NCBI GenBank assembly: GCA_019058165.1
Contig: JAHLVZ010000003.1
Location: 1-64,000 of the forward strand
DNA from: Candidatus Heimdallarchaeota archaeon
GTDB taxonomy: Archaea > Asgardarchaeota > Heimdallarchaeia > JABLTI01
Direction of reading: 5' to 3'
DNA: 64,000 bases
The translations under genes were made by a program, and so were the position numbers. The notes below the pieces were generated by a model, which saw only the letters and a program-made list of their open reading frames with translations, was not told the DNA's origin and ran no database searches. The first letter of the stretch is position 1, and each line of letters opens with the position of its first letter. Below, piece after piece: positions 1,958 through 26,357 of this stretch.

Positions 1958-2082
1958 TGCTTTGGTTAAAGTAACAAAAAAAAATTGTAAAAGAAAAACC
2001 AGGTAAGAGGGAAAAAGTAGTTGTTTCTTACCTGAGTTTCTCTTAATTTTTTGAGGGATATTCCAGACCAATTTAATGAGCT

Positions 2083-2799
2083 TTAAATCGAAGCTCCACA
2101 TTGTGAGCAATATCGGGTATCTTTAGGTGTTAACGGTGCACCACAAGATTGACAGAAAACACCGTCTTTTTTGTTTGTTGCAGGTTGCTCAGATACTTGA
2201 GGTTCTTCAGTAATACCTCTTCTTGCTCTTTTTTCTTGTTTTGCGTTGTAAACTGTAGTATGAATAAGTCTTGTTCCAAGACCTGTTGATCCAACTAATA
2301 ATATTATAGCCATAATTCCAGCAGCAATTATGTGTCCCCACGGTACTATTGTGACGTCAATTCTAGCTTCAACATCATACGGATTAGTATTGTATACTAT
2401 GAAATAATACATACCGTCATAAGGTACCTGTAAATTATTAACATCGACTCTTGAATCATCAAAATAAAATGTGGAATTCAAGATCCCCGGTTCAGTACCA
2501 TTTGTTGATATCCAGAGTTCAAAATCATTTTCGCGCATGATTGAGAAAATCACATCTGCACCATCATCGTAAATGCTCAAGTTTTCGGCATCAAAGTATA
2601 TATACAATCTTGCTCCTTCATTGATTTCAAAATTGAAGAGAATGTAATCCCCAGGAGCAATTTCTTCATAATAAGTATCATAGGATTTTACATTTCGTCC
2701 AATATTTATCCCTTCAATTGCTCCAACGATCAAGCTTCCAACTATTAGTAATAGCATAAAACCTGCGAAATCATTGAAGTATTTTTTTCTGTTGACCAT
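2083..2799 (-). CDS. membrane protein with outer beta domain and cytoplasmic zinc ribbon
   Basis: The 238-residue product has an N-terminal membrane segment (about residues 10-30), then an outer domain of about 125 residues with the alternating hydrophobic pattern of a PPC-like beta domain. A second membrane segment lies near residues 155-178 and a basic cytoplasmic linker follows. The C-terminus is a zinc ribbon (FCQSCGAPL...YCSQCGA, two CxxC pairs). It is divergent from the TrmB-family regulator across a short promoter region with inverted repeats, so the two may be co-regulated. The ligand and role are unknown. Confidence 0.75.
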   Translation of the reverse strand: MVNRKKYFNDFAGFMLLLIVGSLIVGAIEGINIGRNVKSYDTYYEEIAPGDYILFNFEINEGARLYIYFDAENLSIYDDGADVIFSIMRENDFELWISTNGTEPGILNSTFYFDDSRVDVNNLQVPYDGMYYFIVYNTNPYDVEARIDVTIVPWGHIIAAGIMAIILLVGSTGLGTRLIHTTVYNAKQEKRARRGITEEPQVSEQPATNKKDGVFCQSCGAPLTPKDTRYCSQCGASI

Positions 2800-2848
2800 T
2801 TTTTTTCGTTCTCCTCTTGAAAGTTACCATAATCAATAAATACTATTA

Positions 2849-2920
2849 GTTACTACTTGAGTAGTGACCTTTAAATATGTATGCGAATATATTATATTTA
2901 AAGAATTCCTTTCGAAGGAA
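2849..2920. promoter_or_regulatory. divergent promoter region with two inverted repeats and a TATA box
   Basis: GTTACTAC and GTAGTGAC (2849-2868) form an inverted repeat around TTGA with one mismatch. A TATA-like stretch lies at 2892-2902, about 40 bases before the regulator ATG at 2942. A second perfect inverted repeat, TTCCTT and AAGGAA around TCG, spans 2906-2920. TrmB-family proteins usually bind such dyads near the TATA box, so autoregulation and control of the divergent membrane gene are plausible but inferred. Confidence 0.45.
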
Positions 2921-2941
2921 AGAACACGATTAGTGGTAAAA

Positions 2942-3967
2942 ATGCAAATCGATGAAAAACTAGTTGAGGGTCTCACAAGGATTGGATTACAGAAATATCA
3001 AGCACAAGTATATATTGCAAGTGTTGTTTTGGGAGATGCCAGTGCTTATCTTATCGCTAAAGAATCCGGTGTTCCAAGATCCAAAGTTTATGAGGTATTA
3101 GATGGTTTAGTTGAACTCGGTTTCATGTCCAAAGTTCCTTCAGATAAAGGAATGCTATTCAGAGCCTTACCTCCTGAGAACACTATCGATAATGCCATTT
3201 CTAATATTGTAAGTACCATTGATGGTGTGAAGAAAGAAATTAAAGTTCTTCAAGAAGATCAACTAGGCAAATCATCCGATCCACCTATTGTAATTTTTAG
3301 TAATACAAGTTCTTTACTCGAGATGATTCAAGAAGGAGAGTTCTATGAGTCTTGGATTGATAATTCATTAGAAATCGCTTTGGATCTACGTAAGATTTTA
3401 TCTAAAAAGAAGTGCGAGATACATACTATTTCCAGTGCTGCACCATTGTCATTTATTCTTGGACCTACTGATTCATACTTTATACGTGGTAGAAATGGTA
3501 CCTTATTCATGATAAAATTCTCAAATAATATAATGCAACAAATCCTTGGCATGGTTGAAAAAACCAAGTCTGAAACAAAGGAAGAATTATCCAAAGATAG
3601 TGGAGTAAGGATAATACGTGAAACCGCCATTATGAGTTTAGTAGACAAAATCAAACTAGTTATTCCTGGGTATGATTGGAAAACAGAGAAAGTGCTCTTT
3701 TGGGGTACGGCTGAAAATATTTCAGGAGCATTTGCCAGTAAAACACCCTGTGATTGTTTCATCACTGAAACCCGATTATTAATTAGTGCCGATGATGGAC
3801 GTGTCTGGGCTAGAGCGATAAAGTTCATACAAAATTTGGAATTGAAAGATAGTACTATAAAACTCACTTTTGGGAAAGTTGGGGGAACAGAAGTTCTTAC
3901 AATTAGATCTATTGCTTATGCAATCGTTATTAGTAATCTAATAAGTTTCATCCTAAAGAAGAAATAA
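2942..3967 (+). CDS. TrmB-family transcriptional regulator
   Basis: From ATG 2942 the product is 341 residues. The N-terminus is a winged-helix domain (LTRIGLQKYQAQVYIASVVLG, AYLIAKESGVPRSKVYEVLDGLVELGFM) typical of TrmB. A short coiled linker and a C-terminal effector-type alpha/beta domain follow, ending with a possible hydrophobic helix. The frame stays open to an ATG at 2864, but the TATA box at 2892-2902 lies inside that extension, so I prefer 2942 (or GTG 2933). TrmB proteins often sense sugars, but no ligand can be named here. Confidence 0.85.
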   Translation: MQIDEKLVEGLTRIGLQKYQAQVYIASVVLGDASAYLIAKESGVPRSKVYEVLDGLVELGFMSKVPSDKGMLFRALPPENTIDNAISNIVSTIDGVKKEIKVLQEDQLGKSSDPPIVIFSNTSSLLEMIQEGEFYESWIDNSLEIALDLRKILSKKKCEIHTISSAAPLSFILGPTDSYFIRGRNGTLFMIKFSNNIMQQILGMVEKTKSETKEELSKDSGVRIIRETAIMSLVDKIKLVIPGYDWKTEKVLFWGTAENISGAFASKTPCDCFITETRLLISADDGRVWARAIKFIQNLELKDSTIKLTFGKVGGTEVLTIRSIAYAIVISNLISFILKKK

Positions 3968-4035
3968 TTATGAGCAACAAGGGAAACTGTAAATAACTCT
4001 TAGAGAGATTATTTTTTAGTTGAAGGGTTATTACA

Positions 4036-6486
4036 ATGATTCCTAAACATTCACAAAAATTAGGCTTTCTTGTTACTCATGGAACAGATACTATGTCATG
4101 GGGATTAAGTGCTATCAGATATATGTTGAAGAATATACCATCTAATGTAGCAATTACTGGATCACAAGTTCCTTTGAGTCTTAAATTCTCTTCTTCAGAT
4201 GTGTATCCGAATGTAGAAAATTCTATCAAATTATTAACGCAATTAACTGGACCAGAAATATTCGTTGTTTTCAATAATGGTCAAGCTGCTTTCCAAGATA
4301 CCTTATGGAAATTTGATAAGTGGTCCCCGGATGCTTTTAGAGGAGAGGAACTTGCGAAAATAGCTCTTGATGAAATCATCATTCGAGGAAGATCCTATCC
4401 ATTAAATCTTAATCGAAAATTGGATAAATTATTCCTAATTAGGACAGGTGGAACGATAGAATCTGAGGAATCAGAAGGAGGTTTCCTAACTCCTACTGGT
4501 AATCTGATTACAGAATTTATTTCGGAGAAATTCAAACAGTTCTACGATGAGTTCATACCAATTTCTTTAATGGCTATTGATTCATCAGATATGATTCTTA
4601 AATCTTGGAAATCAATTGCGAGAAAAATTGCTGTAGAATGCCAAAAAGCTAATTATACAACTTTCTGTGATGATAATTTTAATCCACGAGTCCAAATCGT
4701 TTCTACATCACCCTTAATGACTGAACAAGATTACTTTGATGCTTTTGAAAAAGCTGATGGAATAATTTTGAATGCTTTTGGTAGTGGAACTATAAACACT
4801 GAAAAAGATTCAGGATTTTCACCATTACCTGCAATTGAACATGCAATAAAAAATGGCAAGATAGTAGTTATTGCTTCCCATACTCCTTTTGGCACACAAG
4901 ATTTCATATACCAAAATGCTTGGGAACCAATTAGAGTAGGAGCCATTCCTGCGGGAGATTTCAGTATAGCTCATTGCCAAATAAAGTTATCATATCTGTT
5001 AGGTCATAAAAAAGAAATCGAAAAGGTAGCGAAAAAACACAAAATACCACTAAGTAATTTTATCAAAATTGCATTTCTTTCTGGTGTTGATTTTAGGTCA
5101 TATTCTAGTAGGAAAAAATTTGAAGAATTAATAAAATATCAGATTCCCTTAAAAGATCCATTCTTTAATTTGCCATTTGAAATGGGTCTTCATAAAATCA
5201 TTGCGTTTCTCGAGAGAAAACAAACACAACAAATAACAATTCAATCAATAGAAGCTTTTGAATTAGCATTTGAAAAATACTTCAAAAACCCAAATAAGAG
5301 AAATAAATGGGCAATAATATTAAAACCAGATACAGTTGTCGGATCCAATAAATGGGGGGAACTTGTGGATGCATCTAAAAATCTCGCAACAATAACGAAT
5401 GAGCTTTTAGATTGGAATATTGTTGTTCTCGAATTATCTGAGATTAATTATCAGCATTTACTAGAGAGAATAGAACAATTATGTGATAAAGAAACATTTG
5501 GTGATTTTCTCAGATCCTTTAGGTATGTCATTGTTGAAGGTGGAAGGCAATCATTATATGATTCCGGAAGTTTTGACCAAGTGTCTAATGGCAATTTTTC
5601 CAAAAAAGATTTTCTTCATTTACTTAGGAGTATCATGTTTTCTAGAAACAAAGCTGGATCAAATCCTACACTTTTTCTGTGTTTAGGACATCAAGGATAT
5701 GCTGAAATGCTTCGAGATTATCTGGAGCAGCTAGTTAAAGACAAGAAGAAAATCGGAAAATTACTCGAGAAATATGACATAAAAGCAAAAGAACACTTTC
5801 TTGAGATAATTGAAAAGATAAACTCAGTTGGAACAAATATAATTGTTAAAAGAAGAAACCAAGAAATTGTTGCTTCGGGTTTTAAGGATCAATACTTTGC
5901 AGTGAAATTAAATGAATTACCTGAAATTGGTTTAAAGAAATTACTTGTTTACAAACCTTCAAAGAATATTGTTCCAGATGAATTACTAAAAGCATATCAG
6001 AAAATTGCTAAACTACATGTTGGTTTACTCGAGGATTTCTACGAATTAGAAACACTCGATATTGCCATGCTTCATGGTGACGAAGTGAATGAGGAAGCAA
6101 TTTTGTTTCTTAACTGGGCCTTGAGTCTTTTAGCTAATTTCTCAAGAGTACATTACAAAGTACTACTAAAAGAATCACAATTATGTGAAATTACCAATTT
6201 ACCTATTGGATTAGAAATACCCAGTTCAACTGCTTATAGTATTGAAGAAGATAAACAAGATACATTAACTGAAATAGCAGGATTTGTTGTCTATTATTAC
6301 AATCCTAATACTGGAATCGTGAAGAGAGATTATACTCTACAATTTCACCCAGAGCTATTTGAAGAAATCAGAATTCTGCAAAAAAGAGATTTTGAAAGCA
6401 AAACCCTTCTGGAATTATCTGATGGAATCCAACTCTTACTCTCATGCTTACAAGCTGGTTTCATTGAAACATCAAAGAAGTTCTAG
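4036..6486 (+). CDS. fusion: rearranged asparaginase domain plus class I glutamine amidotransferase-like domain
   Basis: 816 residues. Residues 14-105 carry the second half of a type I asparaginase N-domain (HGTDT at 15-19, then ITGSQVP and NVENSI). Only afterwards comes the first half: TGGTI at 137-141 with the nucleophile-type Thr140, then DSSDM and WKSIARKI. The asparaginase C-domain follows (FGSGTI, VIASHTPFG). In normal asparaginases the TGGTI half comes first, so the domain looks circularly permuted. From about residue 425 a second region contains CLGHQ (Cys549) and FHPEL (His771, Glu773), the nucleophile and His-x-Glu of class I glutamine amidotransferases. Both active sites look complete. 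Substrate unknown. A GAAGGG site precedes the ATG. Confidence 0.75.
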   Translation: MIPKHSQKLGFLVTHGTDTMSWGLSAIRYMLKNIPSNVAITGSQVPLSLKFSSSDVYPNVENSIKLLTQLTGPEIFVVFNNGQAAFQDTLWKFDKWSPDAFRGEELAKIALDEIIIRGRSYPLNLNRKLDKLFLIRTGGTIESEESEGGFLTPTGNLITEFISEKFKQFYDEFIPISLMAIDSSDMILKSWKSIARKIAVECQKANYTTFCDDNFNPRVQIVSTSPLMTEQDYFDAFEKADGIILNAFGSGTINTEKDSGFSPLPAIEHAIKNGKIVVIASHTPFGTQDFIYQNAWEPIRVGAIPAGDFSIAHCQIKLSYLLGHKKEIEKVAKKHKIPLSNFIKIAFLSGVDFRSYSSRKKFEELIKYQIPLKDPFFNLPFEMGLHKIIAFLERKQTQQITIQSIEAFELAFEKYFKNPNKRNKWAIILKPDTVVGSNKWGELVDASKNLATITNELLDWNIVVLELSEINYQHLLERIEQLCDKETFGDFLRSFRYVIVEGGRQSLYDSGSFDQVSNGNFSKKDFLHLLRSIMFSRNKAGSNPTLFLCLGHQGYAEMLRDYLEQLVKDKKKIGKLLEKYDIKAKEHFLEIIEKINSVGTNIIVKRRNQEIVASGFKDQYFAVKLNELPEIGLKKLLVYKPSKNIVPDELLKAYQKIAKLHVGLLEDFYELETLDIAMLHGDEVNEEAILFLNWALSLLANFSRVHYKVLLKESQLCEITNLPIGLEIPSSTAYSIEEDKQDTLTEIAGFVVYYYNPNTGIVKRDYTLQFHPELFEEIRILQKRDFESKTLLELSDGIQLLLSCLQAGFIETSKKF

Positions 6487-7166
6487 CTTTTCGCTTCTTT
6501 TTTCTCTTCATCTGTTGGTTTCCTAGCAACAATCCAAACGTATCCTCTAAGATCTCCAGGTCTGAGAAGTCTTTCATCACGCCCGACACTTAATAGAGTC
6601 CAACCTTCAAATATTTCTCTTAATTCCTTTTCATAAATGAATTTCATTGGGGGATCTGTATCAAAGTGAGGTGGAATGTTTCCGGAATAGGCAACAAAAC
6701 CTCCTGGTTTTATTGCAGCAGCTATTTCTTTCAATTTCGGTACTGCTTCATCAAATAAATACTGAAGAACTTGTACTGCTACTATGATATCATAGCTTTC
6801 TGGCTCCAAAGGAAAAGCTTCAATATTTTTCTGTTCTGTTCTTAGTTGTTTTTCTAAGCCTAATGTTCTTGCTCTTTTATTGGTAATTTCTATGGCACTT
6901 TCTAAAGCATCAATAGCATAAACATCACAACCAAGATGTGCAAGAAAGCAAGCATAGCGACCATCACCACAACCAAGATCTAAAGCTTGTAATCCTTCAC
7001 CTTTCCCAAAGATGTTCGCGCCTACAACTTGGACAGGAGGGGTGATGAAGGATAAATCTTGAAGAATTTTCTCAGAACCTTCTAGAATTTTTTTATGATA
7101 ATTGTCCCAACCAGTCATCCATTTATCTGGAGCAGGAACGTCTAACCAATTTTTCTCAGAATCCAT
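6483..7166 (-). CDS. class I SAM-dependent methyltransferase
   Basis: 227 residues with a Rossmann-type methyltransferase fold. Motif I is LDLGCGDGRYACFL near residue 68, followed by the acidic end of beta-2 (VYAIDA). Motif IV-like YDIIVAVQVLQYL and the post-I segments LKEIAAAIKPGGF are also clear. The C-terminal strand pair (WTLLSVGRDERL...GYVWIVARK) is typical of the family. The substrate cannot be inferred. Its 3' end overlaps the convergent asparaginase-fusion gene by 4 bases. Confidence 0.85.
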   Translation of the reverse strand: MDSEKNWLDVPAPDKWMTGWDNYHKKILEGSEKILQDLSFITPPVQVVGANIFGKGEGLQALDLGCGDGRYACFLAHLGCDVYAIDALESAIEITNKRARTLGLEKQLRTEQKNIEAFPLEPESYDIIVAVQVLQYLFDEAVPKLKEIAAAIKPGGFVAYSGNIPPHFDTDPPMKFIYEKELREIFEGWTLLSVGRDERLLRPGDLRGYVWIVARKPTDEEKKEAKS

Positions 7167-7280
7167 TATTTAACCCAAGAAATAAACCTCTACTAACTAT
7201 TTTAAGAGAAGCTAAACTCTTGGAAATTTTACAAAATAATTTATTAGTTCTATAGGTAGCAATTATACTGTGATGAGGAA

Positions 7281-13016: not shown

Positions 13017-14408
13017 ATGAAGGATTATACACATAAATTGTTGGATAAACTAGACCTTGGTCCGGGTGGTTTTGCGGATATTCGTTTTCAAAATTCTGAA
13101 ACCTTATTTATGCATATTCAGAATGGTGTAACTCAGGAAACCACCTCCACTCGCATGGGAGGATCATCTGCTCGAGCTTTGGTCAAAGGAGCATGGGGTT
13201 TTAGTTCGACAGCCGAGGTTACTAAAGAATCTCTTCAAGATATTCTGAAATCTGCCGTCTCAATGGCAAAAGTTGCTTCTGCTAAAATTAAAGAACCTCG
13301 GAAAGTTGATTCAAATTTTGCAACTCAAGGGACAGCGAAATTAAAAATGGATGTTGATCCAAAGGATATCTCCATTGAAGATAAGATCAAAATTGCTCAA
13401 GATTATGAAAAAAGCATTAGAGAAGTTGATAAGCGAATCGCGACTGCAACAAGTCGTTATGGTGAGACTGTTAGTTCTGAAACTATTCTTAATACAAATG
13501 GAACTGATGTAACCACAGAAAGCGGTGTTTTTCGTCTAATTGGAGGAGCAGTTAGTCGAGAAGGCGATCTTCAACAAAGGGTATCTGATGACGTTGCTTC
13601 TTCTGAAGGAATAAAATCCATTTTGGAATTTAATGCCATAGAAAGAGGGGCAAAAGTCGGAGAGAAAGCAATTGAACTTCTTTCAGCTGAAAAACCATTG
13701 AGCGGAAAAATGAATTTAATCATGGATCCGAGTCTAGTTGGAGTGTTCATTCACGAAGCTTTTGGCCACGCGTGCGAAGCTGATGGAATTATTACTAAAA
13801 GATCAATTTTACATGATAAAATGAACAAAAAAGTGGGAATCGAAGAAATTTCTGTAACTGATGATCCAACCCTTCTTGGATTGCGAGGTAGTTTTGCTTA
13901 TGATTCTGAGGGAACTAAAGCTCGTCCTCGAAAACTTGTTAATAAGGGTGTTTTAACTGAATTCTTCCATACTCTCGAGACAGCAACTATTCTTGGTCAT
14001 GAACCAAATGGTTCTGGTAGAGCTATGGATTTCAAAAGTCCTCCTTTAGCTAGAATGGGGAATACTTTCGTAGAATCTGGGGACAAAACCATGGATGAAC
14101 TATTTGAAATCATCGGTGAGGGAATGTTCTTGGAATTTTCTTACGGAGGATATGTTAATCCAGCCAAAGGTCAATTCATGTTCTCTGCACAGAATGGATA
14201 TATCATAAAAGATGGCAAGAAAGGCCCATTAACTCAGAATGTTTCTATGTCAGGAATGATAATGGAAGTTCTCACAAATACTATTGGCGTTGGTAAGGAT
14301 CAATCACCAGCTTTCAATGGTTCATGCGGTAAATTTGGTCAATGGATTCCAGTTACCGGCGGAGGTCCCGCTTTAGCAGTTAAAGACCTAGTAGTTGGTG
14401 GAAGATAG
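13017..14408 (+). CDS. tldD: metalloprotease TldD
   Basis: 463 residues, full length for TldD. The zinc site HEAFGH (His246, Glu247, His251) followed by ACEAD is the TldD active-site motif, and the glycine-rich C-terminal part (FGQWIPVTGGGPALAVKDLVVGG) is typical. TldD and TldE form a heterodimer that degrades unfolded peptides and matures some modified peptides in bacteria. The partner gene follows 11 bases downstream with a GGAGGA site between them. Confidence 0.92.
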   Translation: MKDYTHKLLDKLDLGPGGFADIRFQNSETLFMHIQNGVTQETTSTRMGGSSARALVKGAWGFSSTAEVTKESLQDILKSAVSMAKVASAKIKEPRKVDSNFATQGTAKLKMDVDPKDISIEDKIKIAQDYEKSIREVDKRIATATSRYGETVSSETILNTNGTDVTTESGVFRLIGGAVSREGDLQQRVSDDVASSEGIKSILEFNAIERGAKVGEKAIELLSAEKPLSGKMNLIMDPSLVGVFIHEAFGHACEADGIITKRSILHDKMNKKVGIEEISVTDDPTLLGLRGSFAYDSEGTKARPRKLVNKGVLTEFFHTLETATILGHEPNGSGRAMDFKSPPLARMGNTFVESGDKTMDELFEIIGEGMFLEFSYGGYVNPAKGQFMFSAQNGYIIKDGKKGPLTQNVSMSGMIMEVLTNTIGVGKDQSPAFNGSCGKFGQWIPVTGGGPALAVKDLVVGGR

Positions 14409-14419
14409 GAGGAAGAACA

Positions 14420-15763
14420 ATGACTAAAATAGACTTATTTGAAATTGCAGAAAAAGTAGTTAAAAATGCTCAAGTTTTGGGTGCTGAACACTCTGAAGTA
14501 GTCTTAGTACAAGGGGATCAGCTCAGCATTAACCTTGAAGAATCAAGTGTAGTTAAGGCTAATAGCAGAAGTAATACTGGTATTGGTATACGTGTTTTCG
14601 TAAACAATGCTGTAGGATTAGGTTCTTCGACACAATTTGATAAGACCATTCTTGATGCCATGACTTTTGATGCTGTTTCTTTAGCTAAAGCTAGTAATCC
14701 TGATCCTGACAATGCAGGTTTGGCTCTGCCACCTGATAAGTATCCAAAAGTTGCAGGTTTATTTGACAAAGAATTAGCTAGTTTGGAAAGCAGTAAACTC
14801 GTAGAGCTATCCATCCGCGCTTTAAATGCAGGATTAGAAGTAGATTCTGCTTTTAACGTATCTGGAAGTGTAAATCTAACTGTGGGCAAAAAAATCATTG
14901 TGAATTCTAATGGTATCAATGTTAGCAGTGATGATACTTTCATGCAGATTTATCTTAATAACAAAATAACGAAGGATGATGATGTTGGTGTTGGATTTGA
15001 ATACCAATTTGGTCGTTCATTGGATGAATTTAACCCTGAAGAGGTTGGAAAAACTGCAGCTGATAAGGCTTTGAAAATGCTTGGAGGACAAAAAATAGAA
15101 ACTGGTCAATATCCATTTCTCCTCGATCAAAGAGCCACACGTGCTACACTCAATGGAATTGTTGGGCAAGGGGTTTCCGCATACAATATTACTCAAGGAA
15201 CAGCCTTTTTCGACGACCGTTTAGGTGAAGAGATTGCAAGTTCGGCGATCACAGTTGTAGATAATCCTCTCGAGAAAGGAGGGTATGGCAGCAGATTCTT
15301 TGACGACGAAGGCACACCTTGCCAAAAAACAACAATAGTAGAAAAAGGAATATTACTCTCATATCTAAGTGATGTTTATACAGCAAAGAAACTAGATATT
15401 CCTAATACTGGCAATGCTACAAAGCAAGGATACGAAGGAATTCCTCACCCAAGAATGAGTTTGGTACAAATAGAACCTGGTTCTGCAACAAAAGATGAAT
15501 TGTTCGCTGAGCTCGGTACCGGACTCTACCTTGAAAGTCCACTCATGGTACGAGGTGGTACTAATGTTAGCCAGCAAGTCGATGTTGGTTACTGGGTTGA
15601 AAACGGTGAAATCAAGTATCCAGTAAAGAATACCATGCTAGGGACTACAGTTTATGATGTTATGAAGAGTATAAAATTAGTTGGTAAGGAACTTCTCATT
15701 GAAGGTGGTATGAAATCACCAATGATTTTAATTGGTCCAACTAAATTCTCCGGTGGAAAATAA
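14420..15763 (+). CDS. pmbA: TldE/PmbA, non-catalytic partner of TldD
   Basis: 447 residues homologous to TldD in overall plan but without the HExxxH zinc motif, as expected for TldE/PmbA. Family segments include TGIGIRVFVNNAVGLGSST near the N-terminus and YLSDVYTAKKL with NTGNAT in the C-terminal half. It is co-transcribed with tldD (11-base gap). The two subunits should form a chamber in which peptides reach the TldD zinc site. Confidence 0.9.
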   Translation: MTKIDLFEIAEKVVKNAQVLGAEHSEVVLVQGDQLSINLEESSVVKANSRSNTGIGIRVFVNNAVGLGSSTQFDKTILDAMTFDAVSLAKASNPDPDNAGLALPPDKYPKVAGLFDKELASLESSKLVELSIRALNAGLEVDSAFNVSGSVNLTVGKKIIVNSNGINVSSDDTFMQIYLNNKITKDDDVGVGFEYQFGRSLDEFNPEEVGKTAADKALKMLGGQKIETGQYPFLLDQRATRATLNGIVGQGVSAYNITQGTAFFDDRLGEEIASSAITVVDNPLEKGGYGSRFFDDEGTPCQKTTIVEKGILLSYLSDVYTAKKLDIPNTGNATKQGYEGIPHPRMSLVQIEPGSATKDELFAELGTGLYLESPLMVRGGTNVSQQVDVGYWVENGEIKYPVKNTMLGTTVYDVMKSIKLVGKELLIEGGMKSPMILIGPTKFSGGK

Positions 15764-15853: not shown

Positions 15854-16957
15854 TTATCTCCAATCAAAGTAGAATGATTCAATTGTTTCCGGAATTGGTA
15901 TATTCTTCATATTAAAGATATCCAAGTCGATTATCTTCCCGAAGAAGAAGAATTTTGCTTTTTTCAAAGGTTTCATATCAAAATACGGGATATATGGTGT
16001 TTGCAAGCCATACCATCCAAGTTCGTCAGAAGTTTGACACAAATAATTGGCTAACTCACTTGCTTCTTTTGTATTCAATCGATGTATATGAACCATATCT
16101 AGCCAACCAAAAGGAAGCGTATTTCCCATACCTCCAAGGAGGAATTCCCATGCTAGCATGAAGCCTTTGACTTTCCCTTCTTCATCTTCATGCACAACAC
16201 AATTAACATTGGGATTTTTAAGCATCCATTGTAAGTCCTCTAGCTCTGGAACAATTGATAATTGATTTCGTTTTACTTGCTCTTGTATGATTTCAAACAT
16301 TTCTGGAGTATCTTTCTCCTGATATTTCCTGATTTGCTTAGAGCTGATTGTTTTGTACTTTTGATACATTTTAAAAACAAGTTTTTCATACCATCTTAAT
16401 CTGACCACAGTGGAGACTTTAGCTACATCAAAGGCTTTGATAACAAAATGTGTTAGAGTTACTACTTTATGCATAGGAATATTCATCTCTCTTGAGACGG
16501 CAGAAGAAACATCTATTCCATGTTGCTCTGGTTCATGAAAAGAAAATCCCCCATCATAATCTCTAGCAAGACCAACTTCAAATAATTTCTTCCCCATTCC
16601 TTTTGCTAATCCTTTCTTTTGATGTTGAGAATGAACGCACAACCATGAAGGAATTGCGAATTTGTATATTTTTCCATTAATGGAAAGATTGCGAGGAATT
16701 GCCCCTAAGAAACCAACAATTTGTCCTGTTGGTTTATGAATTGCTCTTATGAATAAATCCTTGTCAATTGAAGGAGCCCCATACATAGTGTTAAACGTCT
16801 CTTCTGAAAAAGCAACAGAAGCGCCTTCCTCTATAGCTGATTCATCACTTAAGAACGCTTGAGTAATTAGCTTTGAGAGCTCTGCAAAATTCTCTTTCTC
16901 AATTGTAAATTGCTCAATTTTGTACTCTGAAGCACTTGAAGTCAATTGTTCAACCAC
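15854..16957 (-). CDS. tandem-GNAT protein resembling eukaryotic N-myristoyltransferase
   Basis: 367 residues from a GTG start, with an AT-rich TATA-like stretch about 28 bases upstream. Two GNAT domains are fused as in N-myristoyltransferase (NMT). The first contains VGFLGAIPRN (81-90, compare VGFISAIPAN in NMT), WLCVH (105-109, compare FLCVH) and an acyl-CoA loop HQKKGLAKGMG. A linker leads to a second GNAT (IRKYQEKDTPEMFEIIQEQ, then CVVHEDEEGKVKGFMLAW). Near the end, LKKAKFFFFGKIIDLDIFNMK matches the NMT tail pattern. The C-terminus (FYFDWR) differs from the NMT tail whose carboxylate is catalytic. It could instead be another double-GNAT acyltransferase. Substrates are unknown. Confidence 0.65.
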   Translation of the reverse strand: MVEQLTSSASEYKIEQFTIEKENFAELSKLITQAFLSDESAIEEGASVAFSEETFNTMYGAPSIDKDLFIRAIHKPTGQIVGFLGAIPRNLSINGKIYKFAIPSWLCVHSQHQKKGLAKGMGKKLFEVGLARDYDGGFSFHEPEQHGIDVSSAVSREMNIPMHKVVTLTHFVIKAFDVAKVSTVVRLRWYEKLVFKMYQKYKTISSKQIRKYQEKDTPEMFEIIQEQVKRNQLSIVPELEDLQWMLKNPNVNCVVHEDEEGKVKGFMLAWEFLLGGMGNTLPFGWLDMVHIHRLNTKEASELANYLCQTSDELGWYGLQTPYIPYFDMKPLKKAKFFFFGKIIDLDIFNMKNIPIPETIESFYFDWR

Positions 16958-17032: not shown

Positions 17033-18052
17033 TCAATTCAGGATATCTTTTCTTCTTCTATTTCTTAGTTTACAAATACTATACGATATTGAAAAAACTG
17101 TTAGAACTCCTACTATTAATAATAGATTAAAACCATCAACAGTGACTGATGTAGGATTACTAGGACAAAACTCTTCCCAACTTGGCCAACTTGTAATTGG
17201 TTCAATTGATCCACACCAAGCAATGTCAAATCCTGCTATAGTTTTTAGAATTCCAACAGCTTTAAGATTGTAACAATAACGAATACTATTTGGGCTCAAC
17301 CAATCGTCAAAAGATGGATTTGTTGGGTGATGAATTACCTCATAATCATCACCAAGAACAACTCTTCTGATTTCTTCACGATTAATAGCATATGAGATTA
17401 TTTTCCTTACAACTAAACCAAGTGTCTTTTCTGGATAGCCCGGTGCGTCTATTCGACTACCAATGATAGGTCTTACTTCTCGCATATTGAATATGATAAT
17501 TTCATATGAACTACGGTTATTTTTTTGAGTAAAAAGTGGTAAACAAGATAAGAGTTCATCCATCATATAGTGCTGCCATTCCCAACAAAGATTGATTCTT
17601 GCTTGTGAGTCATTTGGTTCCATTTGAGAACCAGTTTGAATATACCATTCATTCCTACCTGTTCCTAGTTCCGCATCCCAATCCATGTAGGTGCGGTAAC
17701 CAGCAAGATTTAAAGAACCATTTTCTGAATAAAGTTCTGGATTAAACGGATTATCAAAAGCGGAACATGGAAATTCTAATATTTCAAAATCTAAGTCTCG
17801 AAAAGCTATTAATCCTCCAAGGAAACCAATTTCTGACAAGTTAACATATTCTATAATAAGGTGAATGCCAATTCTTGCTAATTGTTGTTTTATCAAATTT
17901 AGGTAATCCAGATGTTTAGTTTTGTAACATTTAGCTTCTAAAAAAAATATTGGATCAATACTTTCAGTTTTTGGTATTGTACTTGGCACTAAACTTATTG
18001 TTACAACTAATGATAAGATAATAATAATTGATTTCTTGTTTTTCTGATTCAT
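17033..18052 (-). CDS. single-lobe, permuted family-5 solute-binding protein
   Basis: 339 residues: a signal peptide, a domain of about 270 residues and a C-terminal membrane helix before a basic tail. The first part (DYLNLIKQQLARIGIHL, ending near LPLFTQ) corresponds to the last part of OppA/DppA-type binding proteins. It is joined directly to LGLVVRKIISYAINREE and YNLKAVGILKTIAGFD, which normally precede it. The roughly 290 residues that form the other lobe in the full-length neighbours are absent. The ORF is intact, and its ATG overlaps the preceding gene's end by 4 bases. Ligand binding by one lobe alone is doubtful. Confidence 0.7.
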   Translation of the reverse strand: MNQKNKKSIIIILSLVVTISLVPSTIPKTESIDPIFFLEAKCYKTKHLDYLNLIKQQLARIGIHLIIEYVNLSEIGFLGGLIAFRDLDFEILEFPCSAFDNPFNPELYSENGSLNLAGYRTYMDWDAELGTGRNEWYIQTGSQMEPNDSQARINLCWEWQHYMMDELLSCLPLFTQKNNRSSYEIIIFNMREVRPIIGSRIDAPGYPEKTLGLVVRKIISYAINREEIRRVVLGDDYEVIHHPTNPSFDDWLSPNSIRYCYNLKAVGILKTIAGFDIAWCGSIEPITSWPSWEEFCPSNPTSVTVDGFNLLLIVGVLTVFSISYSICKLRNRRRKDILN

Positions 18053-19011
18053 TCATTTTTCCCCCCTAGTTTTTTCTTTCTTCTCATATTGCATAAGAAG
18101 ATAATAGAAATTAGCATTAGACATTCTGTAGCTATTCTAAATCCATAATTAGATACACTTATTGTAGTTGGATTATTTGGACAAACTTCCTGCCAATCTG
18201 GATATGTAACATCCCACCAACCAACTTGATATCCGGCAATATACATTAGCTCTCGAGCTGCATCAAGATTGTAACAGTAACGGATACTACTTGGATTCAA
18301 CCATTCTTCTAATGTGGGATTCGTAGGATGATGGATTATCTCATAATCATCACCTAAAACCACTTTTCTTATTTCTTCTCGGTTAATTGCATAAGAAATA
18401 GCTTTTCTAATAACAAGACCTAAAGAAATATCTGAGAAACCAACAGCTGGTTGATCACTTCCAATCACTGGTCTGCTTTCATGTAAATTGTAAAAAAGTA
18501 ATTCATATGTACTTCTATTGGAGGTTTGGGAAAAAAGAGGTAAACAAGGTAAAAGTTCATTCATCATATAATGCTGCCATTCCCAGCATTGATTTATTTG
18601 TTCTTGTGAATCATTAGAAATCATTTCTAATCCATTTTGTATGTACCACTCATTCTTACCAGTTCCTAATTCCTCATCCCAATCCATGCTAGTATGATAG
18701 CCAAACATCATATTATTGAGAGAGCCATTTTCATTATAGACTCCGGTGAAGTCTGGATCAACACCACCACCGGATAGACTAACATAAAAAACATCAGCGC
18801 CCCAATAAGGAGGAAACCCGAAAAAATCCCACCAGCCAAGAAGTTGGATATCAAGTTCAATGTTAATATTTCTCAAATAATCTCGCAATAAATTTAGGTA
18901 ATCAGTTCTTACTCCTCCGCCATATGATTTAGCTGTTAAAGTAAAGAATGGTTCAAAGGAATCCACTTTTGTTGTTGAAATTAATGCCAAGTTTGAGCAG
19001 CAGATTACCAA
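18049..19011 (-). CDS. single-lobe, permuted family-5 solute-binding protein
   Basis: 320 residues with the same plan as the next gene: hydrophobic N-terminus, GGGVRTDYLNLLRDYLRNI, DPDFTGVYNENGSL, then LPCLPLFSQ joined to LGLVIRKAISYAINREE, YNLDAARELMYIAGY and a C-terminal membrane anchor. The missing lobe is deleted at the same place as in its neighbour, so both descend from one deleted ancestor. It overlaps the following gene by 4 bases, so they are translated together. The listed start may be a little late or early; the hydrophobic segment is short. Confidence 0.7.
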   Translation of the reverse strand: MVICCSNLALISTTKVDSFEPFFTLTAKSYGGGVRTDYLNLLRDYLRNINIELDIQLLGWWDFFGFPPYWGADVFYVSLSGGGVDPDFTGVYNENGSLNNMMFGYHTSMDWDEELGTGKNEWYIQNGLEMISNDSQEQINQCWEWQHYMMNELLPCLPLFSQTSNRSTYELLFYNLHESRPVIGSDQPAVGFSDISLGLVIRKAISYAINREEIRKVVLGDDYEIIHHPTNPTLEEWLNPSSIRYCYNLDAARELMYIAGYQVGWWDVTYPDWQEVCPNNPTTISVSNYGFRIATECLMLISIIFLCNMRRKKKLGGKNE

Positions 19012-19066
19012 AGCTAAGCTAACAAAGATTACTCGCTTCGTTATTTTGTTTATTTTTAACTCCTCA

Positions 19067-20932
19067 TTATCTTCTTTTTCTTGACTTAATAGACCAAATG
19101 GAAGCAGTGCATAGAATCAGCATTCCTCCAATAACAGAGATTAATGATAAATCAGTTCCATTTGTTCCAAGCCAACCCAAATCAAAACCTGCTATTTTCA
19201 CGTATTTTCTTGCTTCCTGAATGTTATGATTATATTCAATTATATCAAGATTACACCATACACCTAATTTATGATAAATTGGATGATTCACTACTGCATA
19301 TTCTCCTCCATGAACGATGTTATTCATTTCTTCTCTATTCATAGCATAGGAAATTGCTTTCCTTATTGAAAGACCAATAGATATAGAGGGATCACAAGGA
19401 GCTGGTGCACGATTACCAATCACAGGTCTTACTTCTCGCATATTATAACCAAAGAAACCAAAATTCCAAGTGAGATCAGATTGGATTGCAAAATAATCGC
19501 AACAAAAACTATCCCCTCTCTTATCAGGTAAAGAAGTAATATCAAGAAGATCAATTTTTCCTGATTCAAATTCTAAGAGAGATATCTGCTCATTAGGAAT
19601 TATTCGTATTCTTAGTTGATTTATTCCTCCGGAGAAATCTCCGAATCTTGACTCCCAATTTAGGTTTGGATCATCAGTTATTGTTGGATCAATCCACCAA
19701 CTCTCAGGATTAACACATAATGTGGTTTCAGAGCTTATAGTATAATTGCTGATACTAAACAGACCTGTTCCAATGCATTGTGTAGCTAATGAAATCCAGG
19801 ATGGATGAGTAATATCAGGAGTTTTCCCATCTGGTAGTTGGCTTTGGTTCAAAAAGTGTTCTGGCAAGATTATAGTGCTAATAGCTGGTAAGAAGTCAAC
19901 ATATGGGTCTTGATGTCGTGTATCTGGATCACCATCAATAAAAATGTCCATTGTCCATTGATCGAGGATTTCCATTTTAGCGATCCAGTTATACAAATAT
20001 GGGTCATTAGATACATATTTCCAACAATAAAGGGTGAAGTAAACATCATGAATATCGAAATACTCACTGGTGAACAAGCTATCTGAATCATTTTGCCATT
20101 TAACGCCTTGTCTTGCAGTTATTCTCAACCAAGTATCATTCAGCATTGTGAAGTTTTCTGCTAAATGCGGCCAAACACTCAGATCATTATCATACCAGAT
20201 TAAAGGATCATAACATGCTTTCACAACAAAATCAGATGCAGAGTCATGCTCAAAAATTGGTGTTAAGTCAGACCAAGCAGCATCTGCAATTACAAGTTCT
20301 TTAGAATCTACTTGTCCTGTATGTGTGGTGTCCCAGGACATCTTCCCCCAAGATTGAAGAATTCCTTCTGAAAAATTATATCCTTCCAATTCTGGCCAAT
20401 AAGCCATATATGTTCGAGGTGTGAATGTTGGTTGTAGAGGTAGGATCTTATCCATAAGATACTGTTCCCACGCCCAGTAATGTTGTTTTCGTTCCTCTGA
20501 ATTTGGGGGCATGATCAAATTACCTTGTCTCATGTACCACTCATTCAACCCTGTTCCTAGGCACTCATCCCCATCCATACTTGTATGGTACCCAAACAAG
20601 TTGAGTGAGCCATTTTCATTATAAACACCAGTGAAGTCTGGATCAGCACTTCTTCCAGATAAATCAGTATAACAAATATCAAAATCTCTATAGACGAGTA
20701 ATTCACCTACAAATGTCGGCCAATCTTGGATGATTACTTCTAGATTTATTCCGATTCTAGCCAATTGATCTCTGAGTAAATACCCATAATCCGGTCTTAC
20801 TCCTCCTCCATTTGTTTTAAAAACCAATGTAAAAAATGGAGCTTTAGATTCTACTGTGTTAGTATTCAAATAGATATAACAAAAACTTGTAAGAACTAAT
20901 ACTACTAATAGTAAACTATACCCTTTCTTCAT
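19067..20932 (-). CDS. permuted family-5 (OppA/DppA-like) solute-binding protein, membrane-anchored
   Basis: 621 residues with a signal-type N-terminus (5-25) and a C-terminal membrane helix plus RKRR. Domain order is unusual. The segment with RPDYGYLLRDQLARIGINLEV, DPDFTGVYNENG and LPLQPTF, normally the C-terminal end of SBP_bac_5, comes first. The usual N-lobe follows (ACYDPLIWYD, WPHLAENF, ITARQGVKW, DIHDVYFTLYCW). Last comes the part that normally precedes the C-end (LSIRKAISYAMNREEM near residue 520, YNHNIQEARKYVKIAGF). No permease or ATPase gene is nearby. Peptide or sugar binding is plausible. Confidence 0.8.
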   Translation of the reverse strand: MKKGYSLLLVVLVLTSFCYIYLNTNTVESKAPFFTLVFKTNGGGVRPDYGYLLRDQLARIGINLEVIIQDWPTFVGELLVYRDFDICYTDLSGRSADPDFTGVYNENGSLNLFGYHTSMDGDECLGTGLNEWYMRQGNLIMPPNSEERKQHYWAWEQYLMDKILPLQPTFTPRTYMAYWPELEGYNFSEGILQSWGKMSWDTTHTGQVDSKELVIADAAWSDLTPIFEHDSASDFVVKACYDPLIWYDNDLSVWPHLAENFTMLNDTWLRITARQGVKWQNDSDSLFTSEYFDIHDVYFTLYCWKYVSNDPYLYNWIAKMEILDQWTMDIFIDGDPDTRHQDPYVDFLPAISTIILPEHFLNQSQLPDGKTPDITHPSWISLATQCIGTGLFSISNYTISSETTLCVNPESWWIDPTITDDPNLNWESRFGDFSGGINQLRIRIIPNEQISLLEFESGKIDLLDITSLPDKRGDSFCCDYFAIQSDLTWNFGFFGYNMREVRPVIGNRAPAPCDPSISIGLSIRKAISYAMNREEMNNIVHGGEYAVVNHPIYHKLGVWCNLDIIEYNHNIQEARKYVKIAGFDLGWLGTNGTDLSLISVIGGMLILCTASIWSIKSRKRR

Positions 20933-21046
20933 TTAGCTCAGCCATCCATTTCTTCGAGACTAATGAACTCTCAAACAATAATATAAACCATCGAGGTTTA
21001 TATCATTTTCTATCTTTAAAATTTAATTTTTGTCAGTGGTTTGACT

Positions 21047-21682
21047 CTAAAAACGGGCGGAATACAATTTAACTAAATTCTTCGGAACCCTATTTTGTGG
21101 GCAATGAAGATTCACACATTTTGAGCATAGTTTTGAAGCCAATCCTACAGCGTAATAGATTCCAGTTAGAATTGTCACTCCTAAGAAAATAGAAAACATA
21201 ATCAGTTGATGATTTTTAAAATCACTTACCTTTGTTAACAAGAACCATATTCCGTATGTTTGAATTGTTGTTGGGAACAGCAAAAAGAAAAAGTGACCGG
21301 TAAAATTAACAATCTTCTCTAAGATGTTCATTGGTTTCGATTGATATTTCCAAATTTTTGGTAATGGTTCCATGAATTTCTTTTGTTCATAATATGGACA
21401 ATGAGAGCACAGTACCTTTAATCTGATGATGAAGAAATATACTACAAGAAAACTAGTATAAATTATCGAATAAACTCTAATTCCGGACCAGATACTAAAG
21501 AGAACCATACCTATTGTTGATACGAGTAGATATGGAGAAAAGACTCTTTGAAATTGCCATAGTAGTTTTCTTTCCCATTTACAATTTAATTTGTTTTCTA
21601 ACACACAATTAGTGCATTTATTCTTCTTAAAAGCTTGACAATAAGTTGTTTCATCCTTTTCTTCTTGTTTTGTGTCAGCCAT
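21047..21682 (-). CDS. Cys-rich four-helix membrane protein
   Basis: 211 residues with four membrane segments (about 50-70, 75-95, 130-150, 160-185). Cysteines cluster on the N-terminal side (YCQAF, CTNC, NC), in the middle loop (CSHC) and at the C-terminus (CSKC, HCPQN), all predicted on one side of the membrane. They could bind zinc or an iron-sulfur cluster. The gene lies between two binding-protein genes, 5 bases from the upstream one, so it belongs to their operon. The family was not recognised. Confidence 0.7.
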   Translation of the reverse strand: MADTKQEEKDETTYCQAFKKNKCTNCVLENKLNCKWERKLLWQFQRVFSPYLLVSTIGMVLFSIWSGIRVYSIIYTSFLVVYFFIIRLKVLCSHCPYYEQKKFMEPLPKIWKYQSKPMNILEKIVNFTGHFFFLLFPTTIQTYGIWFLLTKVSDFKNHQLIMFSIFLGVTILTGIYYAVGLASKLCSKCVNLHCPQNRVPKNLVKLYSARF

Positions 21683-21687
21683 TTATC

Positions 21688-23592
21688 TCAGCTTTCAATA
21701 TCATAATTTTTTTTTCTTTTTATGAAAACAGTTACTACCCAAAGGATAGTTGATATTGCAATAAAATAAGTATACCCAGAGATCATTTTTGATATTCCTG
21801 TTGCAGGCGTATAATCGACAGCATATCCTGCTAGATCCATGTAATATTTTGCTTTCTGTAAATTATAATTGTAACGAATAACATTTGGATTAATCCAAAC
21901 ACCAGAATTTGGAGATAATGGAGTATAATAAATAGCATATTCTCCCTCATGGATATTGCTATTAATTTCCACTAAATTAATTGCATATGATATTGCTTTC
22001 CTAACTGCTAATCCAATAGTGATTGAATCATCAAGGGGGCATGGTTCTCTACTACCAATATGAGGACGATTTTCTCTCATATTATAAGCAATAAATGAAA
22101 ATGATTCGGTCGATTTGTACTGCAAATCAAATCTGATATCCGTTAGAAACTCATCTTTTTTATCAGGATTCCATCCTATAGAATGAAGATCAACCTTCCC
22201 TGCTTCAAACTCAAGGAGTGCTGTTTGTAGATCGGGCATTATTCTTATTCTTAATTGATCAAGCCCACCTGAGAAATCTCCGAATCGTCTATTCCATTCT
22301 AGGTTTGGATCACTTGTTATGGAGGTATTTAATCTCCAACTTTCAGGATTTATTGTAAGAATTGTCTCTATACCTTCATAGAATTGGCTAATTTCGAACA
22401 ACCCAGTTCCAAAACAATGATTACTAAAAATCTCCCAAGAAGTATGATTACTGTCAGGTGTTACTCCATCTGGTAACTGGGTTTGATTCAAATAGTGTTC
22501 CGGCAGGATTAAATCTGTCAGTGTAGATAAATACGGAGCATATGGCTCATTTTCTTCGGTGATTTGATTCCCATCTATGTAGATATCTAATGTGTAATTA
22601 TCTATAATTTCCATATGTTCTATCCAATCATAGAGATGTTGATCATTTGAGAGGTATTTCCAACTATAAAATGTGAAATAAACATCTTCAACATCTAAAT
22701 ATTCATTGGTAAAATTTCCTTCATAATCAGAAGCCCATTTTACTCCTTCTCTTATTTTTATTCTGATGTGTGTATCATTAATATGGGTATAGCTTTCTGC
22801 CAGATGTGGCCAAACAATTTGATCTCCATCGAAAGAAATTAGGGAATCCATGCAAGCACTGCTAATGAAATTTGAGGAAGTATACTCTTGGGATAGTGGG
22901 TTTAAATCAGTCCAAGCAGCATCAGTTATTACTAATTCATCGGTACTTACTTGTCCTTCATGAGACCCATCCCAAGACATCTTACCCCATGACTGCAAAA
23001 TACTATCTGTATAATTATAGCCTTCTAAATTGCTCCAATATGCCATAGTTGTTTGAGGTGAAAATGCCGGTAACATTGGACAGATTTTATCCATCAGGTA
23101 ATCTTGCCATGCCCAGTAGTGCTGAATTCTTTCGGGAGAATTTGGGGGCATTATTTTCGTTCCTTCTCTCAGATACCACTCATTTACACCTGTTCCTAAA
23201 TCATCATCCCAATCCATTGATGTGTCATAGCCAAAAATATTCAATGATCCATTTTCATTATAAATTCCAGTAAAATCCGGGTCATAACCTCCTCCTGATA
23301 AACCTAAAAACGTAATGTCAAAATTCCTTGTATATAACAATTCTTGAACATATGTTGGAAAATCAACAATGCGAATATCTAGTTGAATTCCTATTCGAGA
23401 TAAATGTTGTTTAAAGAAATTGAAATAATCAGGCCTAACTCCTCCACCATGTTCCAATCCAGACAAAGTAAAATTATAAGTAACTGCTTCTGTTTTTAAA
23501 GGGTGCAGTGTGATTACATTAGCGAAAAAAACTGTTGTTATTAGTAACATCAACAATGCATTTCTCGTAAAACACCTCATTATAACAGCCAA
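21688..23592 (-). CDS. permuted family-5 solute-binding protein, membrane-anchored
   Basis: 634 residues; an ATG at 23580 (MRCFTRNALL) may be the true start. It has the same rearranged order as the 621-residue neighbour: GGGVRPDYFNFFKQHLSRIGI and DPDFTGIYNENGSL first, then the N-lobe (ACMDSLISFD, WPHLAESY, IREGVKWA, DVEDVYFTFYSWKYL), then LAVRKAISYAINLVEI and YNYNLQKAKYYMDLAGY. The C-terminal membrane helix is followed by KRKKN. It is probably the first gene of the binding-protein operon. Ligand unknown. Confidence 0.8.
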   Translation of the reverse strand: MAVIMRCFTRNALLMLLITTVFFANVITLHPLKTEAVTYNFTLSGLEHGGGVRPDYFNFFKQHLSRIGIQLDIRIVDFPTYVQELLYTRNFDITFLGLSGGGYDPDFTGIYNENGSLNIFGYDTSMDWDDDLGTGVNEWYLREGTKIMPPNSPERIQHYWAWQDYLMDKICPMLPAFSPQTTMAYWSNLEGYNYTDSILQSWGKMSWDGSHEGQVSTDELVITDAAWTDLNPLSQEYTSSNFISSACMDSLISFDGDQIVWPHLAESYTHINDTHIRIKIREGVKWASDYEGNFTNEYLDVEDVYFTFYSWKYLSNDQHLYDWIEHMEIIDNYTLDIYIDGNQITEENEPYAPYLSTLTDLILPEHYLNQTQLPDGVTPDSNHTSWEIFSNHCFGTGLFEISQFYEGIETILTINPESWRLNTSITSDPNLEWNRRFGDFSGGLDQLRIRIMPDLQTALLEFEAGKVDLHSIGWNPDKKDEFLTDIRFDLQYKSTESFSFIAYNMRENRPHIGSREPCPLDDSITIGLAVRKAISYAINLVEINSNIHEGEYAIYYTPLSPNSGVWINPNVIRYNYNLQKAKYYMDLAGYAVDYTPATGISKMISGYTYFIAISTILWVVTVFIKRKKNYDIES

Positions 23593-24848: not shown

Positions 24849-26357
24849 GTGTCTGAAATGAAAGTTTCCACAGTGATTTCTGTTTTAGAAAAAATTGATG
24901 CACCATTAATTATAGTTGGTGCTGTTGAGAAAGCTAAGGATGATTCCTTAGTTGGGAAAGATAAAGGTTCTCTTGGCAAGGTCGTTAAGGAAATTATTGA
25001 GCTTGATGACTTTAAAGGTGAATCCGGCGAGCTTCTTTTCACATATACTCAAGGTGAACTTCCAGCAAAACGTCTTCTTCTTGTTGGGTTAGGCAAGGAA
25101 GAAGAGCTTAAAGCTGAGAGTATAAGAAAAGCTTTAGGCAATGCTTCTAGAAAAGCTCGAGATCTTAATGTCAAGAAAGTAGCTATTAGTTTTAATCATT
25201 TCTTACGAAACAAAATTCCACTTGCTGATGTTGCAGAAGCTCTTGTCCAAGGGATAATCATGGGTAGTTTCCAGAATTTAAAATATAAGACAAAAGATTT
25301 GGATAAGTTCAAGCACATAGAAGAACTCGTCATCTTTAGTTCTGATGCTGATGAAAAAGCTTTGAAAGCAGCAGTAAAATCTGGCAAAGTAATCGCAAAA
25401 GCAGTCAACTTTTGTAGGGAAATGGCTTGGGGTCCAGCAAATGACATCACCCCCACAAAATTAGCTGAGGAAGCAATACGATTAGATAAAGAATATGGCA
25501 TCAAAACCACCGTGTTTGATCGTAAAAAATCCGAGGAAATTGGATTACATAGCTTTTTGGCTGTCGCTCAAGGAACTGAAGAACCTCCCAAATTCATTAT
25601 CATGGATTATGGTTCTGAGAAGAAAGATGTTGATACTATTGCTTTAATTGGCAAAGCTATTACTTTTGATACAGGTGGTATAAGTCTAAAACCAAGCCAA
25701 GGTATGCCCAGCATGAAGGCTGATATGACCGGTGGAGCTGTTGTTATCGCTGCAATGGAAGCCATTGCACAATTAAAACCAGATTTAAGGATTGTAGGAG
25801 TTGTTCCTGCAACTGACAACATGCCTTCTGGTAAAGCTTATCATCCCGGAGATATCGTCAAGAGTTACAGTGGACAGACTATAGAAGTCGTTAGCACTGA
25901 TGCAGAGGGAAGGATGGTCATCAATGATGCCCTAACTTATGCAGCTCGAAACTACAAACCAAAAGCTATGTTTGATTTTGCTACCCTTACTGGGTCAATA
26001 AGTGTTGCTTTAGGCAATCATGCCATTGGTTACTTTGCAAATGATGATGATTTAGCAGAGATACTTGAGAAAGCATCTGAAACTAGTGGTGAACGCATCT
26101 GGCGTATGCCATTATGGAAAGTGTATGATCAACAATTTAAAAGCGATGTTGCGGACTTTAAACACACAGGCGGTCGTCCTGGTGGAGCAATCACAGCTGC
26201 AAGATTCTTGAGTAAATTTGTAGAGGAATTTCCTTGGATTCATATGGATATTGCTGGTGTCTCCGGACAAGAAAGCGACAAGGACTATAATCCTCAAGGA
26301 AGCAAAGGTGCAGCAGTTCGTTTAATTGTTGATGTTTTAAGATATTGGAAAAAGTAA
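24849..26357 (+). CDS. pepA: leucyl aminopeptidase, family M17
   Basis: 502 residues, the usual length for M17. The metal-binding and catalytic motifs are clear: GKAITFDTGGISLKPS with the metal Lys/Asp, MKADMTGGA, and the signature STDAEGRMVIND. The N-terminal macro-like domain is present. It removes N-terminal residues from peptides in the cytoplasm as a hexamer with two metal ions. Start is GTG 24849, with TATA-like sequence at about 24793-24812. Confidence 0.93.
   Translation: MSEMKVSTVISVLEKIDAPLIIVGAVEKAKDDSLVGKDKGSLGKVVKEIIELDDFKGESGELLFTYTQGELPAKRLLLVGLGKEEELKAESIRKALGNASRKARDLNVKKVAISFNHFLRNKIPLADVAEALVQGIIMGSFQNLKYKTKDLDKFKHIEELVIFSSDADEKALKAAVKSGKVIAKAVNFCREMAWGPANDITPTKLAEEAIRLDKEYGIKTTVFDRKKSEEIGLHSFLAVAQGTEEPPKFIIMDYGSEKKDVDTIALIGKAITFDTGGISLKPSQGMPSMKADMTGGAVVIAAMEAIAQLKPDLRIVGVVPATDNMPSGKAYHPGDIVKSYSGQTIEVVSTDAEGRMVINDALTYAARNYKPKAMFDFATLTGSISVALGNHAIGYFANDDDLAEILEKASETSGERIWRMPLWKVYDQQFKSDVADFKHTGGRPGGAITAARFLSKFVEEFPWIHMDIAGVSGQESDKDYNPQGSKGAAVRLIVDVLRYWKK

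Follow-up and report, generated by a model that had tools for sequence, protein, structure and literature searches.

Can a family-5 solute-binding protein (SBP) of the OppA/DppA type carry its two halves in exchanged order and still serve as a receptor for peptide import? The question is raised by a gene cluster of Candidatus Heimdallarchaeota archaeon (GenBank assembly GCA_019058165.1, contig JAHLVZ010000003.1), a contig of which we analysed the first 64,000 nucleotides, hereafter the window. An earlier note, made from the sequence alone, had proposed that in four proteins encoded there the order of the halves is reversed, with lobe II split between the two ends of the chain and lobe I inserted in the longer proteins. 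All four open reading frames (ORFs), encoding proteins of 634, 621, 320 and 339 amino acids, are present on the minus strand (Table 1). We find that both long proteins are genuine circular permutants of family-5 binding proteins. Overall, we put a probability of about 85% on the reading that such proteins are working peptide-import receptors, circularly permuted by way of duplication, in which the membrane anchor has moved from lobe I to lobe II.

The exchange is apparent when each half is aligned separately to the Pfam profile SBP_bac_5 (PF00496), which has 368 positions. In the 634-amino-acid protein, profile positions 4–279 fall on residues 262–591, and positions 297–355 match separately on the N-terminal region (window 23272–23448); in the 621-amino-acid protein, which shares 52–53% identity with it, positions 289–355 match at 20633–20833 and positions 4–284 at 19166–20170. 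Both scores (3.4e-33 and 5.4e-25) exceed the family cut-off. We also built a profile from 25 permuted proteins, denoted A1, and ran it against all PDB sequences. On Escherichia coli DppA, A1 positions 196–551 align with chain residues 20–368 (1.3e-67) and positions 33–193 with residues 371–528 (7.5e-24). The blocks are therefore matched in exchanged order, which places the cut directly after the conserved AGF/AGY helix. As a control, A1 gave the reverse block order on normal-order proteins of the same phylum, so the profile method separates permuted from normal proteins. The match to the C-terminal half of DppA rules out a chance likeness of the N-terminal segment. A hidden normal C-half at the C terminus is likewise ruled out, as none appears in the profile matches or in the predicted structure, and the AGF/AGY helix of the long proteins is followed only by a hydrophobic transmembrane helix of about 30 residues. 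Both segments are thus homologous to the reference, exchanged in order and each present once.

The structure prediction agrees with this arrangement. An AlphaFold2 model of the 634-amino-acid protein, computed with 72 permuted sequences (mean predicted local distance difference test score (pLDDT) 88.6, predicted template modelling score 0.83), is predicted to adopt the bilobed cluster-C fold of OppA and DppA; its best PDB fold match is DppA (1dpe, E 7.8e-15) and the top matches are family-5 proteins. Only 405 columns are aligned because Foldseek, the search program, aligns in sequence order. Model helices 2–27 and 601–633 fit a signal peptide and a membrane anchor. Profile blocks and predicted fold together bear out the proposed division of lobe II between the chain ends. 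The old N and C termini, both in lobe I, would be joined, and the new termini would lie between the AGF/AGY helix and the next β strand in lobe II, which we take to be domain III of OppA. The chain would then run from the signal peptide through the second half of lobe II, the end of lobe I, the start of lobe I with domain II and the first half of lobe II to the transmembrane tail, retaining the fold and the two-lobed peptide trap. With the new termini in lobe II, the anchor would be joined to that lobe (in normal-order members it follows lobe I), and the protein would be tethered to the membrane through lobe II rather than lobe I.

The two short proteins keep only profile positions ~1–173 and ~456–589, that is, lobe II in permuted order, with lobe I cleanly deleted. 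The reversal attributed to all four proteins stands; what had gone unrecognised is the loss of lobe I, which makes the 320- and 339-amino-acid proteins permuted single lobes and not whole binding proteins. Their genes overlap by 4 bases and their products are 49% identical. A pair of like composition occurs in a congener (locus L178; one of the two also in L179), near the same nitroreductase-like and aminopeptidase-like genes. The AlphaFold2 model of the 320-amino-acid protein has a pLDDT of 72.7 overall and about 90 in the core, and a PDB fold search with the short protein gave weak matches only (E 5e-3), none of them significant. The ratio of non-synonymous to synonymous substitution rates (dN/dS) of about 0.1–0.45 suggests moderate selection on the short proteins, an uncertain estimate, as dS values are either nearly saturated or very small. 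The preferred reading is that they derive from a permuted gene that lost lobe I by deletion and was duplicated in tandem.

The swapped order extends far beyond the window. Its genome holds 17 family-5 matches, none of which extends in the normal direction beyond profile position ~287; every full-length one examined is permuted, as are all those whose order is readable. A locus scan with an alignment of nine relatives returned 22 loci (the same DNA-pattern scan with a single window protein returned none) from metagenome-assembled genomes (MAGs) titled ‘Candidatus Heimdallarchaeota archaeon’ or ‘Asgard group archaeon’, and every full-length copy among them is permuted. Across 228 genomes of the phylum, colinear permuted matches occur throughout the class (Heimdallarchaeota) and in several families outside it, alongside normal-order proteins; about 100 distinct permuted proteins were examined, mostly of the same class, and the order is also found in two single-contig genomes (G019 and G027). 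The survey of Asgard genomes that the earlier note had suggested thus found the exchanged order throughout the genus and class; the canonical N-to-C lobe order is kept neither in the window proteins nor in their genome and class. Full-length permuted proteins have dN/dS values of about 0.17–0.27, which indicate purifying selection. Among six plasmid-borne bacterial relatives, five have the normal order and one matched only partly; the two-stretch PDB matches are consistent with normal order, a sampling that does not establish absence outside Asgard archaea.

Some loci also carry incomplete or composite copies. At L178 (6372–10028), several broken fragments of permuted genes lie in an array beside intact copies, which suggests active gene duplication and decay. 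A protein encoded at L014:10341–11171 (L002:3202–3897), adjoining a tandem pair of permuted genes, combines a leucine-rich-repeat-like N-terminal sequence with the AGF helix and membrane tail of a permuted binding protein, which make up its last ~57 residues. A 257-amino-acid normal-order remnant at L037:79–852 (L131:244–1017), in which part of lobe I is joined directly to the C-half, sits beside a full-length normal-order copy and is perhaps a deletion product.

The block order has switched more than once in Asgard archaea, although the tree does not separate gains from reversions. In a tree built from 75 proteins in a profile-column alignment, the window-type permuted order requires 8 changes, at least 6 of them by well-supported branches. 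Placing all window-type permuted proteins in one clade, and with it a single origin of this cut, is rejected (approximately unbiased test, p-AU 3e-55). A single ancient permutation with several later reversions would account for the normal-order proteins nested in permuted clades (8 rows in the largest permuted group, and L122 in another), which look like reversions. That history is nonetheless unlikely: besides the rejected clade and the number of changes on supported branches, the permuted group of L020 is closest to bacterial normal-order proteins in both halves, and other cut sites require separate events regardless.

Among individual proteins examined, at least three cut sites besides the window's occur in the phylum. 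The 28 proteins of the first type (CP-B; families f11 and f28), which form one clade in the tree, open with the strand that follows ‘RNPDYY’ and close immediately ahead of it (profile 404–552, then 35–404). The second (CP-C, L049) is cut within the C-half and the third (CP-D, L050:1754–3868) starts just before the ‘FRKA’ helix; compared with a normal-order protein, L034, the L050 protein shows 44% and 48% identity with the blocks swapped. The L050 contig also bears Opp permease- and ATPase-like genes. The CP-B domain is found, too, at the N terminus of giant proteins of 2,299–2,513 amino acids (L143:181–7080, also L142 and L144; the L142 protein is cut by the locus end at 1,510 amino acids). 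The L143 protein joins it to a subtilase (Peptidase_S8, 8.7e-33), a union of a peptide-binding domain with a secreted protease.

The switch can be followed most closely at one syntenic locus in two species of a single genus. The permuted protein of L118 and the normal-order protein of L122 are both 586 amino acids long. Their blocks stand in opposite order and share 66% identity (349 residues) and 53% identity (171 residues); the transmembrane tails (59%) align without any shift in position. The surroundings are alike and in the same relative order: OppB, the SBP, a ~260-amino-acid protein, an M20 peptidase, two paralogous ~530-amino-acid proteins and more.

Permutation by duplication predicts tandem duplicated intermediates (PMC3320104). 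Fused proteins of this N-C-N-C type exist in the same phylum, in L145 (1,817 amino acids, 1491–6944) and L146 (1,663 amino acids, 2283–7274), and partially in L120 and L121; they have the form expected of such intermediates. The L145 and L146 proteins comprise two complete fused family-5 binding domains in one chain, followed by further C-terminal sequence without identification. Were the stretch between signal peptide and tail duplicated in tandem and in frame, an N-C-N-C gene would result, and loss of the first N block and the last C block would then yield the permuted gene, if the change ran in that direction. It seems rather probable to us that signal peptide and anchor stay in place while the family-5 gene rotates between them time and again, at four cut sites, one of which has served or been reversed on several occasions, among them at a syntenic locus of a single genus; topology would then be an evolvable trait that sets which lobe is tethered, and permuted single lobes would have been spun off as new proteins.

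Peptide capture for import appears to be the best-supported role of the permuted proteins, which most likely pass peptides to importers of the OppBCDF type. In family f2, permuted proteins sit with complete OppB, OppC, OppD and OppF genes (L058 and L059, the latter also with an M19 dipeptidase), L224 has permuted proteins together with OppBCDF, and the permuted form lies beside Opp genes in two more genomes (L226 and L227, by similarity to the L224 genes). The window's own genome holds 13 BPD permease matches and 7 oligo_HPY ATPases, none adjoining an SBP. With permeases and ATPases present and no normal-order family-5 protein seen, the importers probably use the permuted proteins; ligand and partner transporter in this genome are inferred.

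Several points weigh against reading these proteins as receptors permuted through duplication. No permuted gene in the window's genome was found beside Opp permease or ATPase genes, and the evidence for a partnership there is therefore indirect. The window's own genus yielded no tandem N-C-N-C protein. The sequential Foldseek alignment covers ~405 of 634 residues and does not directly gauge the packing of the N-terminal block, and the tree was built by a quick method and contains some long branches. The missing Opp neighbours would also suit a history in which the permuted SBPs of this genus are no longer transport receptors and instead act at the surface in binding, in sensing or in association with proteases, with the fold kept and the importer lost. 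The many paralogues, the lobe-II-only derivatives unable to close a two-lobed trap and the fusion of a differently permuted SBP to a subtilase in other Asgard genomes fit that history as well. We consider it quite unlikely, given the permeases and ATPases in a genome where no normal-order family-5 protein was seen and the permuted proteins within complete Opp gene sets in other families.

An alternative to the rotation of whole genes, that the N-terminal block was taken from a different binding-protein gene, is allowed by the large paralogous families and tandem arrays, and domain shuffling has been proposed as possible for Treponema pallidum MglB-2 (PMC4990184). The two halves nevertheless tell the same story: distances to normal-order relatives, taken from the N-part and from the C-half, are in agreement (r 0.67; at most 0.17 after shuffling), and in three separate groups the nearest normal-order relatives are identical for both halves. 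Both halves thus point to the same normal-order relatives, which argues that whole genes were rotated and that halves were not swapped between genes. Congruence is weakly tested in the window's clade, whose nearest normal relatives are distant (about 25% identity) and where the two halves do not single out a common one; even so, shuffling strikes us as improbable. Misread ORF boundaries, frame errors or mis-assembled tandem normal-order genes, conceivable for tandem arrays in a fragmented MAG, are ruled out for practical purposes by the recurrence of the order in many independent genomes, single-contig ones included, by the separate signal peptide and tail of each protein and by dN/dS well below 1.

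Table 1 Features of the permuted binding-protein cluster and its flanks in the window
Feature	Coordinates	Strand	Basis
634-aa circularly permuted family-5 solute-binding protein	21688..23592	−	ORF; PF00496 3.4e-33 in two stretches; colinear with permuted profile A1 3–588
634-aa protein residues ~41–205, homologue of DppA C-terminal half, directly after signal peptide	22978..23472	−	PF00496 297–355 at 23272–23448; A1 33–193 = DppA chain 371–528
634-aa protein residues ~216–590, homologue of DppA N-terminal part, ending at VRKAISYA...AGY helix	21823..22947	−	PF00496 4–279; A1 196–551 = DppA chain 20–368
634-aa protein, C-terminal transmembrane anchor (residues ~601–633)	21691..21792	−	Hydrophobic helix H601–633 in model
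621-aa circularly permuted family-5 solute-binding protein	19067..20932	−	PF00496 5.4e-25; colinear with A1 1–589
320-aa permuted lobe-II-only protein, lobe I deleted, transmembrane tail	18049..19011	−	A1 15–173 then 460–589; clean alignment gap
339-aa permuted lobe-II-only protein	17033..18052	−	A1 1–173 then 456–586; alignment
211-aa multi-pass membrane protein between the two long genes	21047..21682	−	ORF; no Pfam family
TldD/TldE-type (PmbA_TldD) metallopeptidase pair, cluster flank	13017..15763	+	Pfam PF19289/PF19290/PF01523
M17 leucyl aminopeptidase, cluster flank	24849..26357	+	PF00883 1.9e-117

The 211-amino-acid membrane protein is cysteine-rich and unrelated to the binding proteins, and its gene is possibly co-transcribed. 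The peptidase genes that flank the cluster recur elsewhere: a ~500-amino-acid gene similar to the M17 gene, as judged by N-terminal sequence, occupies the equivalent position in L178, L179, L181 and L183, and TldD/TldE-type genes also adjoin three permuted genes in L038. Between the metallopeptidase pair and the cluster (15854–16957), the window encodes a GNAT-like protein that, in this Asgard archaeon, scores above the Pfam cut-off for the N-terminal domain of eukaryote-type N-myristoyltransferase (PF01233, 1.8e-9). An Rfam scan of the window found no RNA family.

Most cases of circular permutation are inferred from comparisons of distant proteins, and its origin and any selection on it are open questions. 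Here, one family within one phylum contains normal, permuted (with several cuts) and tandem-fused forms, including one pair of syntenic orthologues at 53–66% identity, and the path between topologies is therefore traceable and testable. Because the standard family model splits in two on permuted proteins, annotations of Asgard peptide uptake are likely to contain errors. For sensor design, the permuted forms supply natural examples of binding proteins with termini in lobe II.

Compared with OppA, DppA and NikA of family 5 (cluster C), the window proteins share homology of both halves, the predicted fold, the signal peptide and, in relatives, Opp operon partners, and a C-terminal transmembrane anchor is likewise present in normal-order Asgard members. 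They differ in that the blocks are reversed, the termini lie in lobe II and not in lobe I, and the Pfam model is broken in two. We found no report of a permuted family-5 or Asgard binding protein in the open-access literature; the earlier note's statement that it knew of no described case holds for family 5, but a permuted binding protein of another family has been described. T. pallidum Tp0684 (MglB-2) is a naturally circularly permuted, membrane-tethered glucose-binding protein, a topology proposed by its authors as an adaptation to anchoring (PMC4990184). The likeness is that of a natural permutation in a tethered binding protein. In contrast to the Asgard proteins, MglB-2 is bacterial, belongs to the type I, cluster B class and represents one described permuted subclass, and the available parts of the report mention neither a syntenic pair of normal and permuted orthologues nor a tandem intermediate (PMC4990184). 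The window proteins do not belong to this TpMglB-2 type (cluster Bc), as the sequence and fold matches of the long protein are to family 5 and not to type I, cluster B proteins. DNA methyltransferases and saposin/swaposin (PMC3320104) likewise show tandem duplicated intermediates and permutation within one family; their folds are unrelated, and in the Asgard SBPs rotation is confined to the blocks between signal peptide and anchor, which both keep their places. Single-lobe variants of ribose-binding protein (PMC10601554) resemble the short proteins in being cut down to one lobe, whereas those of the window are a permuted lobe II with its own signal peptide and anchor, tandem-duplicated and conserved between species. 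Natural permutation of a binding protein is thus known; what appears new here is the family, the several cut sites, the candidate intermediates and the syntenic swap.

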